From the NCBI GenBank assembly GCA_017694955.1, contig JADIMC010000053.1, positions 1 to 64,000 on the forward strand: 64,000 nucleotides of DNA, in the 5' to 3' direction. Numbering within the stretch: the first letter of the stretch is position 1; each line of letters begins with the position of its first letter. The position numbers were made by a program, and so were the translations under genes. Shown in pieces: positions 417 through 51,043 of the stretch. Source of the DNA: Candidatus Limisoma faecipullorum (GTDB lineage Bacteria; Bacteroidota; Bacteroidia; Bacteroidales; Muribaculaceae). Under the pieces are notes generated by a model that worked only from the letters and a program-made list of their open reading frames with translations, did no database searches and had not been told where the DNA came from.

Positions 417-600
417 TGAGCTATGTATGCCCAACTCTCAACACTTTTCTGTTCAACTCTTATAATAACGTGAGTCCAATATACGAATTGAAAGAGCTGT
501 GAAATCAAAAGAATGAATTACAAAGGTTTCACTTTTCAACGCACACCTTTCCAGCTTCCAAACGGATATAGGACAAGTTGATGACTGGTTTGAAAAATCC

Positions 601-1269
601 TTATTGCGGTTTCATTGTGAGCGTGCCATCAGGGGCTACTTCAAAGTCGATTTCATAGTAAACGATTGATGTGGTCCCGGCATTCGACACTGTTTCGTTG
701 CCTTTTTCAATTACGTTGAACGTGAATTCCGTGCGGTAGTCGGCAACATATTCACCTTTGCCGGAGCTTGATTCGGGTACTCCCGCCTTTATCCTGTACT
801 CTGCCAGCGATTTAAATTCATATTCCGCGGGAATCATAGCCTTTGCGTCTTCCAATTGCTTTGTGATTGCAGCTGGGTCGAGCTTACTTGCGTCAATAGG
901 CGTTATCTTCTCGTAGTCAAGCCCTTGACTGTACCAATGGTCAGGAGATATATCGGCGGGTTTCCAGCCGAGTTGACCTAAGAATCCTTGGCTGAACACC
1001 TGCCCGTTCGATTTTACGAGCTTCACGAAAATGCTGCCCAAATTAAGGTTGTTTTCTAATTTCTCAGAGTCGCTTGTGCCTTCGCTCCATTCGACTTGGA
1101 TAAGTTTCCACTCCTTGGGGTCAACGTTCTTGGTAGTGATTTCCTTTACTTTCTCTACCGCTTCGGGTGAGTCCATCGCAAGTTTTCCGAATGAGCTTGC
1201 ACCACCGCAAGAAGTGATTGCGCCTGCTGTCAGTGCGACTGCCATCAAATTTAAGAATTTGGCTTTCAT
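601..1269 (-). CDS. Hypothetical lipoprotein
   Basis: 222 aa ORF, signal peptide with lipobox (MKAKFLNLMAVALTAGAITSCGG). Confidence 0.7.
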   Translation of the reverse strand: MKAKFLNLMAVALTAGAITSCGGASSFGKLAMDSPEAVEKVKEITTKNVDPKEWKLIQVEWSEGTSDSEKLENNLNLGSIFVKLVKSNGQVFSQGFLGQLGWKPADISPDHWYSQGLDYEKITPIDASKLDPAAITKQLEDAKAMIPAEYEFKSLAEYRIKAGVPESSSGKGEYVADYRTEFTFNVIEKGNETVSNAGTTSIVYYEIDFEVAPDGTLTMKPQ

Positions 1270-1361
1270 AAATAAGGTATGTTTTAAAATTTATAAATAG
1301 TTAGTTGGTTTGAATTTTAATTGGTCTTTCAATATTGCAAATATACAGAAAAGGGGTATTA

Positions 1362-1369
1362 CCCCCCCC
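1362..1369. repeat. C8/G8 homopolymer upstream of the 601-1269 lipoprotein gene
   Basis: accccccccg read directly; about 16 nt upstream (minus strand) of a TATATTTG -7-like element at 1338-1345. Confidence 0.7.
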
Positions 1370-1559
1370 GATTTGGTTAAAAAATCATAATTTCACCTTA
1401 ATTTGAGATGCTTTTTCCCAATGCACCATCGCCAATATTTACTTTTCTACCACCAAATAAATGCGTTGATTGATATTCCTATCTATGTTGACATTAGACT
1501 TGACAAGGCATAGCCAGTAAACACATTGTAATACAGATCCATAAAGGCAGCGGACAGGA

Positions 1560-1582
1560 AACCCGCGGCTTTGCCGCGGGTT
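1560..1582. repeat. GC-rich hairpin AACCCGCGGC-TTT-GCCGCGGGTT, REP-like
   Basis: Perfect 10-bp stem; resembles the second hairpin of the 14.4/43.5 kb units; no T-run follows. Confidence 0.6.
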
Positions 1583-1704
1583 GTTCATACGAAGAGTCTA
1601 TAAGACTTTTAACTGTCAAACAAGTAATCATCTATTCTCTTTTGACTTATAGAATAAATCCTACTATATCGATCTCCCGACACTTTCTGCTCAACGTTTA
1701 CAAA

Positions 1705-9797: not shown

Positions 9798-9873
9798 GAT
9801 TCGCTAGCTCAGCTGGTAGAGCACAACACTTTTAATGTTGGGGTCTTGGGTTCGAGCCCCAAGCGGATCACCA
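9798..9873 (+). tRNA. tRNA-Lys (anticodon TTT), CCA encoded
   Basis: Acceptor GATTCGC/GCGGATC, anticodon stem CAACA-CTTTTAA-TGTTG, GGTTCGAGCC T-loop, CCA at 9871-9873. Confidence 0.95.
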
Positions 9874-14124: not shown

Positions 14125-14266
14125 ATATAATTTTTCACAAAGTTACACTTTATTCCCATATACACCAAACGCATATTGTCCCCTAAAACAGTCGCACCGC
14201 CCTGTATGACTGCGCATCGACGTTATGCGCGGCATCCATAATGCCGATTCACCCACCGTATCCTGT

Positions 14267-14314
14267 CCTACGGCTGAAGCCGCAGGTTAACTGTACGCAG
14301 CCGCCATGCGGCTG
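14267..14314 (-). repeat. Two-hairpin REP-like unit, inverted orientation
   Basis: Reverse complement CAGCCGCATGGCGGCTGCGTACAGTTAACCTGCGGCTTCAGCCGTAGG; matches 14411-14458. Confidence 0.8.
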
Positions 14315-14410
14315 ACTTCCCATCCTCAAACATACCACAGCACCACCTCTGCAGCACACCACATCACCACCACGGCGGCACGGCAACACAAAAACACACA
14401 GCAGCAGTGA

Positions 14411-14458
14411 CAGCCCTGAAGGGGCTGCGTACAGATAACCCGCGGCTTCAGCCGTGGG
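14411..14458 (+). repeat. Two-hairpin REP-like unit, direct orientation
   Basis: CAGCCCTGAAGGGGCTGCGTACAGATAACCCGCGGCTTCAGCCGTGGG. Confidence 0.8.
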
Positions 14459-14520
14459 ATAAGCGAGACACCCCACTCAGCCCCATAGGGGCTGCGCACC
14501 GCGACGCTGCAGACGGGGGC

Positions 14521-14550
14521 AAAAAAGAAGCGCGGCTCGCGCCGCGCTTC
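14521..14550 (-). terminator. Terminator for 14601-16310 gene / PUL operon
   Basis: GAAGCGCGGC-TCGC-GCCGCGCTTC followed on the minus strand by TTTTTT. Confidence 0.8.
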
Positions 14551-14600
14551 CCCTGTGTCCGGCCTGAGCCGGACGGTGCTACGTGTGTATGTAGATTTAC

Positions 14601-43027: not shown

Positions 43028-43101
43028 AGCGCAAAAAGATTTTTTAAGGTTTAAAACTTGTTACACACAATCTTTTATTTCTAAATTTGAAGCAGCAGAA
43101 A

Positions 43102-43415
43102 AGTGTCCTCCCCTGTTCACGAAGCGGAGCGGACTTAATAGGGGAAGTGGGTCGAAGACCCGGAGGGGTTCTTTATTGTGGCTGTCGCCACAGGTTAGAG
43201 GTTAAGGGTCATAGGTTATAGCGGCGAGGCCGCGCTACAGGCTAACCAGCAAATATAACCTGTCAGCTGCGCTGACAATAACCTGAGCCAAAGGCTCACT
43301 GAATAGTCCTGAACGGAGCCGCTTTGCGGCTCTTCCCGGCGGCAGAGGCCGCAGGTATCAACCCCCTCGGCACTCCGTGCCACTCCCCCTATTTGCTCCG
43401 CAAACAGAGGGAGAC
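43102..43415. repeat. Composite intergenic element, copy 1
   Basis: Shares agtgtcctcccctgttcacg...ttaatagggga...cggaggggttct...ccccctcggcactccgtgcc...ctccccctatttgctccgc..aaacagagggagac with copies 2 and 3. Confidence 0.8.
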
Positions 43416-43473
43416 ATAGGAATGTTGAGTGAGAATTTTCACTAAACACTCAACACTAAACGCTCAACTGAAC

Positions 43474-43521
43474 AGCCCCATAGGGGCTATTGATGCGTAA
43501 CCCACGGCTTCAGCCGTGGGT
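43474..43521 (+). repeat. Two-hairpin REP-like unit, third copy
   Basis: AGCCCCATAGGGGCT-ATTGATGCGTA-ACCCACGGCTTCAGCCGTGGGT. Confidence 0.8.
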
Positions 43522-43643
43522 CATAGAGCGGCAAAGCACCGGCCTCGTAGAGGTCGCGCTTGAAGCAACCAAGCCACAGGCACGGCACCTACAGAGCAGT
43601 TGTTCTGTCGAAGAATGAATTATTAATAATAAAACATATAGGT

Positions 43644-49454: not shown

Positions 49455-49592
49455 CGTGTGGCTGACGCCACGAGTTATTGTAGCTGTCGCTACAGGTTAT
49501 AGGTTAAGGTTTATTCCCTAACCAGTAACCCCTAACCTGCCGCCACAGCGGCAATAACCCGTGGCGACAGCCGCAAAAAAGCAAAGCGACAA

Positions 49593-49796
49593 AGTGTCCT
49601 CCCCTGTTCACGGAGCGTAGCGTAGTTAATAGGGGAGGTGTCCCAACGGGACGGAGGGGTTCTGTGCCAGTGTCGTGGCAGGTTATAGATTAAGGGTACA
49701 GGTTAACCTATAACCAGAGCCGACAGCTCCAACCCCCTCGGCACTCCGTGCCGCTCCCCCTATTTGCTCCGGCAGGCTCCGCAAACAGAGGGAGAC
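49593..49796. repeat. Composite intergenic element, copy 2
   Basis: Direct match to copy 3 over most of its length. Confidence 0.8.
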
Positions 49797-49883
49797 AATC
49801 AAGGATGCCGGCCTATTGTAGGCATTGGATTTAAAACAACACAAACACAAAAAAACTTATTACTAACTAACAAACTAATAACA

Positions 49884-50597: not shown

Positions 50598-50710
50598 CAG
50601 ATTATTGTAGCTGCCGCTACAGGTCATTGTGGCTTCGCCACAGGTCATAGGTTAAGGGTTATGGGTCATCCGACAAAAGCCGCGACAGCCGCAAAAAAGC
50701 CGCTCTACAA

Positions 50711-50920
50711 AGTGTCCTCCCCTGTTCACGGAGCGCAGCGCAGTTAATAGGGGAGGTGTCCCAACTGGACGGAGGGGTTCTGTGCCAGAGTCGTGCAGGT
50801 TATAGATTAAGGGTCACAGGCTAACCAATAACCCATAACCTGAGCCGCAGGCTAAAACCCCCTCGGCACTCCGTGCCACTCCCCCTATTTGCTCCGCAGG
50901 CTTCGCAAACAGAGGGAGAC
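50711..50920. repeat. Composite intergenic element, copy 3
   Basis: See copies 1 and 2. Confidence 0.8.
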
Positions 50921-51043
50921 AATTAAAGCTTCATGGAGCAATGTCTGCACACAATGCGGCGCAAACGACAACGACGGTGTAGCTCCGTAGTGGCTACACA
51001 TCAGGACTTTGAATTTACAACACGATTTACAAACTTAATTACA

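Follow-up and report, generated by a model that had tools for sequence, protein, structure and literature searches.

The window, a stretch of 64,000 nucleotides at the start of a Candidatus Limisoma faecipullorum contig (JADIMC010000053.1; host genome G000), carries four copies of a dispersed unit of ~102 nt, which consists of three hairpins in the order HP1, a linker ending in TAACC, HP2, a second linker and HP3 (Table 1). This layout was derived from an alignment of 15 copies: HP1 has about 6 pairs and a loop of 3-5 nt, the linker from HP1 to HP2 ends in an invariant AACC, HP2 has 8 pairs and a loop that is mostly TTCA, the linker from HP2 to HP3 is variable (about 12-25 nt), and HP3 has 6-7 pairs. 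The initial annotation had described an inverted pair at 14 kb and a further copy at 43 kb as a two-hairpin unit of 48 nt. Re-reading of the positions confirmed the letters of these three stretches, and the repeat is real; its extent had been taken wrongly as 48 nt, and the fourth copy had been overlooked. A 24-nt pattern of linker and HP2 (≤3 mismatches) occurred twice in the window, compared with 0.00 expected from shuffles, and folding of the four units as single-stranded DNA gave z-scores of -3.2 to -4.2. The 43-kb unit contains a 28-nt stretch of HP3 and its tail (CGGCCTCGTAGAGGTCGCGCTTGAAGCA) that is identical to the upstream one of the two units flanking a transposase gene described below. 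Another dispersed repeat family rich in hairpins (CTCCCTCTGTTTGCGGAGCAAATAGGGGGAGTGGCACGNAGTGCCGAGGGGGTT and neighbours) was observed as well, and its copies often lie near the units.

Table 1 Repeat units and associated features of the window (R1, covariance model of the unit)
Feature	Position	Strand	Remarks
Segment absent at the orthologous place in G003	448-1674		Holds predicted gene 601-1269 (-) and unit 1519-1611
Fourth unit, more divergent, A+T-rich	1519-1611	-	R1 53.8 bits (training-set member); fold z -4.1
Unit, inverted member of 14-kb pair	14215-14317	-	R1 89.0 bits (training-set member); fold z -3.2
Hairpins of unit 14215-14317	HP1 14298-14314, HP2 14267-14286, HP3 14230-14246	-	
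Spacer of 14-kb pair	14318-14407		HP1 ends of the two units face each other; 14125-14600 without assigned coding region
Unit, direct member of 14-kb pair	14408-14509	+	R1 91.9 bits (training-set member); fold z -3.8
Hairpins of unit 14408-14509	HP1 14411-14427, HP2 14439-14458, HP3 14478-14494	+	
Unit	43470-43571	+	R1 86.1 bits (training-set member); fold z -4.2
Hairpins of unit 43470-43571	HP1 43474-43488, HP2 43500-43521, HP3 43540-43556	+	
Second repeat family	43101-43416, 49475-49797, 50626-50921		Also on contig C85 and at the ends of C39 and C80

Dispersal and structural conservation of the units

The genome scan proposed in the initial annotation extended the original three copies to about 20 distinct, confident places in G000. 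The covariance model R1 gave 28 matches, and the number of places is lower because some matches are opposite-strand shadows of others. All window copies belonged to the training set of R1; outside it lay C26, C65 (two), C88, C87 and C85:3974, that is, about six places in G000, together with nearly all matches in the congener G003. The host assembly is 88.9% complete, and several units lie no more than a few hundred bases from a contig end, as is usual for repeats when assemblies are built from short reads; the count is therefore a minimum. According to the codon-score gene prediction made in this analysis, 24 of the 25 places examined were free of predicted genes, and the exception, 43470-43571, overlapped solely with the start of a doubtful TTG-initiated frame. 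The annotation had also considered that the sequences might belong to a known IS or an rRNA-like feature. No known IS could be identified around the units and no Rfam family overlapped them, the sole Rfam match above the gathering score being a tRNA at 9798-9870.

In the host-genome units, 97.3% of the cells of the structure named beforehand were paired, and eight pairs had changed on both sides. The covariation score was 0.338; shuffling gave 0.151, and sliding the structure along the alignment gave no more than 0.065. Stems do vary together, as had been proposed, and the fold is maintained. The units of G003, aligned separately, gave a covariation score of 0.231 (0.098 in shuffles) with seven double-sided pairs, and RNAalifold recovered the same three hairpins from them de novo. 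Compensatory stem changes are seen in the units of the host and, independently, in those of its congener.

A single Y1 transposase gene between inverted units

Exactly one Pfam Y1_Tnp gene was found in the host genome (G000:C93:6773-7222), on a contig other than that of the window. It is flanked by two inverted copies of the unit with HP1 pointing outwards, and the arms are complementary over 72 nt (93%) and 33 nt (97%). Since the sole Y1 gene lies between inverted units, the prediction that such a gene accompanies the repeats holds. The encoded protein is intact, comprises 150 amino acids with the motifs DHIH and YISNQQEHH, and matched the solved IS200-family transposases 2a6m, 2vhg and 2xm3 in the PDB. 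It passed the NCBIfam IS200/IS605 model NF033573 with 77.7 bits (cut-off 55), also matched PF01797, and failed the NCBIfam model for REP-associated tyrosine transposases (REP_Tyr_transpos; 31 bits, cut-off 80). Y113, Q117, H120 and H121, which form the motif Y---Q--HH, were invariant in alignment A2.

Quentin et al. (2018, PMC6006769) characterize TnpA_Y1 subclass 1.2, with 101 members in their study, by Y---Q--HH, a length of about 148 amino acids, DH[IV]H and a low copy number, place it mainly in Cyanobacteria and Bacteroidetes, and list it as 'REP: no' and without IS properties. The host protein shares the motif Y---Q--HH, with a length of 150 amino acids, DHIH and a single gene. Judged by these sequence features, the host enzyme is a TnpA_Y1 of subclass 1.2 and not a class-2 RAYT; the latter identity was ruled out by the low score with the REP-associated model and by the motif Y---Q instead of Y---NP. 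A standard IS200/IS605 element, whose gene would be present in several near-identical copies without inverted flanks, does not fit either: the protein family agrees, yet there is one gene copy, and its flanks are inverted. The published lack of an associated REP is contradicted by these inverted flanks and by the dispersed copies. The initial reading, that REPs are moved by a RAYT transposase in a Bacteroidales genome, thus stands as far as the REP-like nature of the units, their dispersal, their link to a Y1 gene and the host order are concerned, but not as to the class-2 RAYT, the enzyme being one of subclass 1.2.

In a tree of 96 rows the subclass-1.2 label was clustered (7 changes compared with 16.7 in shuffles) and was not confined to one side of a branch. 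Six proteins with YSxSQ or with Q but without HH (L099, L047, L051, L056, L110 and L113) nest among the subclass-1.2 proteins in this tree, suggesting that the limits of the subclass may not be set by the motif alone.

Inverted flanks and matching repeats in other genomes

Y1 genes were drawn from 61 related genomes, and 450 nt on either side of each were examined for an inverted repeat. Flanks were counted as inverted if this repeat scored more than 1.5-fold higher than the best among 40 shuffles, a threshold of our own choice. This applied to 35 of the 47 testable subclass-1.2 genes and to none of the eight genes of the IS200-proper clade (29/47 and 0/8 at a threshold of 2 times); for 35/47 versus 0/8, Fisher's test gave a p of about 1e-4, although related genes are not independent. 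The remaining 12 of the 47 subclass-1.2 genes had no inverted flank at the 1.5-fold threshold. Another 80 named loci, taken from a genome collection, formed a second set, in which 47/77 cases had inverted flanks and 30/77 had none by the chosen threshold. The taxa with inverted flanks include Flavobacterium, Mucilaginibacter, Chryseobacterium, Pasteurellaceae, MAGs labelled Verrucomicrobia, Spirochaetaceae and others, where the labels of MAGs may be wrong.

In 52 strong arm pairs, a small hairpin was mostly followed by TA[AG]CC, a central hairpin and another small hairpin, with 2.1 perfect hairpins per arm (0.64 in shuffles); flavobacterial arms often had no HP2. TA[AG]CC was present in both arms of 32 of the 52 pairs, compared with 1.6 in shuffles. 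The canonical REP foot GT[AG]G was hardly enriched (24/52 versus 17.3 in shuffles) and was rejected, TA[AG]CC standing in its place. HP1 and HP3 were more alike within one arm than between arms (0.63 versus 0.43; 0/2000 permutations), and the same was true of their tails (0.31 versus 0.17). The same layout recurs from species to species with different letters. Three class-2-like Y1 genes of the same family (L128, L129 and L130, from G033 and G020) also had strong inverted flanks, so that Y1/REP systems of more than one kind may exist side by side.

In IS200-type elements the two end hairpins are similar and have the same orientation. HP1 and HP3 are alike and equally oriented, and the protein passes the IS200 model, so one could see in the units decayed ends of ordinary IS200/IS605 elements that had moved and then lost their gene. 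Against this, the units number some 20 and the intact gene one; this gene has inverted whole units on both sides, which IS200 elements lack; and the IS200-proper genes of the same genomes had no inverted flanks in any of eight cases. Subclass 1.2 is, moreover, described as having no IS properties (PMC6006769). We regard this origin as unlikely.

The repeats follow the genome that carries the gene. For the arms of 21 genes, additional copies were nearly confined to the genome in which the respective gene lies. The joined arms of 10 of these genes, used as a query, were found among the matches listed only in the genomes that carry these 10 genes, at from at least 2 to at least 29 places in each; among the matches listed there were none in six gene-less genomes and none in four genomes whose own arms were absent from the query. 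Copies of their own arms were present in 11 further genomes, with no matches in G000 or G001, and cross matches were few (the arms of L218 and L198 match G069). Within the genus, R1 had 32 matches in G003, whose gene is 85% identical to that of G000, and it had none in G001, which has no gene, or in G002, whose genes are 34% identical. Common ancestry of entire genomes could account for part of this near species-specific match between gene and repeat. Beside units of its own type, G003 has a few of the G000 type (e.g. L147 3095-3196), which makes two repeat subfamilies in one genome.

The intergenic position, strong folds and compensatory changes would also be expected if the units acted mainly at the RNA level, as terminators, stabilisers of mRNA ends or structured RNA, and were selected as such, the link to the transposase being incidental. 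We consider this unlikely as well, since no Rfam family matched, inverted copies with different letters and the same layout flank the transposase gene across species, and the repeats track the genome carrying the gene. The units have no terminator-like T-tract, and the reading as terminators was rejected for this reason. An RNA-level role can also be a secondary one.

Comparison with related genomes revealed differences in the presence of units. At the gene locus, homology between G000 and G003 spans only HP3, the gene and HP3; the neighbours differ and are not syntenic. On contig C94 of G000, a 258-bp segment with one unit lies just after a stop codon; G003 lacks this segment, and its two flanks adjoin directly there. 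The difference is longer than the unit itself. The comparison of occupied and empty sites suggested at the outset has therefore yielded a unit that is cleanly absent at an orthologous site. The segment 448-1674 of the window, likewise absent in G003, has similar short sequences at both ends. Both differences are compatible with insertion as well as with deletion, and with more than one position for the ends of a mobile piece. The neighbours of the 14-kb pair and of the 43-kb unit are not syntenic in G001-G003, homology stopping at about 14161 and 42852. We infer that the units transpose. Two inverted units on contig C85 (G000:C85:1704-4333, L138) enclose a Sel1-like repeat gene; in the congeners G001, G002 and G003 the corresponding neighbour genes occur without this whole stretch between them. 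The gene could be cargo between the units or part of an unrelated island; as a mixed island, the stretch was not counted as a clean insertion.

The inverted pairs with spacers and the short similar ends of 448-1674 might suggest that the units are MITEs, or scars left by the integration of a DDE or recombinase element that is unrelated to the Y1 gene and inserted beside it by chance. This is highly improbable, since a single terminal inverted repeat is lacking, both orientations are found among the pairs, and the same layout around Y1 genes in many genomes would need repeated coincidence; within the set examined, the association with the Y1 gene refutes this reading.

Proposed mode of action and relation to known REP systems

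The units are probably REP-like non-autonomous repeats of the single-copy subclass-1.2 Y1 (HUH) enzyme, which would recognise, cut, rejoin and spread them. This interpretation is supported by the association with the gene, the structural conservation, the dispersal, the near species-specific pairing of gene and repeat, and the presence and absence at sites. The enzyme would recognise HP1 and HP3, the two small hairpins, together with the conserved TA[AG]CC foot of HP2, the foot possibly acting as a guide, on single-stranded DNA, for example during replication. In the manner of E. coli TnpA_REP, which cuts and rejoins its REPs (PMC8266576, PMC3733652), the subclass-1.2 enzyme would cleave the strand and transfer it, and units would be copied or moved, singly or as inverted pairs, to intergenic sites. 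More tentatively, the unit may itself be a minimal IS200-like transposon, with HP1 and HP3 as its ends and HP2 with TA[AG]CC as cargo or guide, and the subclass-1.2 enzymes across Bacteroidota and beyond may make up a REP-mobilising system of their own, with an evolutionary history distinct from that of the class-2 RAYTs; taking HP1 and HP3 as the two ends is a guess prompted by their similarity and equal orientation.

The organisation resembles the REPtrons of E. coli, Stenotrophomonas and Pseudomonas, which consist of REP/BIME (REPIN) repeats and a class-2 TnpA_REP (RAYT): a single-copy Y1 gene lies between inverted palindromic units, copies are dispersed in intergenic regions, some of them paired in inverted orientation, every gene goes with a repeat family of its own, and stems show compensatory changes. 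In contrast to REPtrons, the enzyme is of subclass 1.2 (Y---Q--HH) and not of class 2, the unit has three hairpins instead of one, and TA[AG]CC precedes the central hairpin, whereas GT[AG]G is not enriched. Tens of copies were found here, compared with more than 100 per genome for classical REPs. IS200/IS605 elements such as IS608 and ISDra2 share the Y1 HUH enzyme and hairpins near the ends; they have no inverted whole-unit flanks, and in them the gene itself is amplified.

With subclass 1.2 as presented in PMC6006769, our enzymes share the motif, length, low copy number and occurrence in Bacteroidetes. No REPs are listed there for this subclass, whereas most members examined here are flanked in a REPtron-like manner. 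We explain this difference by the scan of that study, which used hairpins with a GT[AG]G foot; the units lack these and would have been missed. Subclass 2.6, also described there, occurs in Bacteroidetes as well and has atypical REP structures with copies elsewhere in the genome; compared by description only, it is set apart by its Y motif, YIH[QN]NP. We found no report of REPs or of a REPtron-like organisation for subclass 1.2 in the open-access literature, and one may exist elsewhere; a paper on a Chryseobacterium RayT has resistance-gene neighbourhoods as its subject.

The units probably work like a REP/RAYT system, differing from it in two membership features, the enzyme class and the GT[AG]G tag. 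Most of the examined members of an enzyme subclass that had been described without REPs appear to be accompanied by them, which gives the subclass a likely substrate. The range of REP-like systems is thereby extended within Bacteroidota as well as in several other phyla, and a second case, which may be an independent one, is provided of single-strand transposases that have turned into keepers of intergenic repeats.
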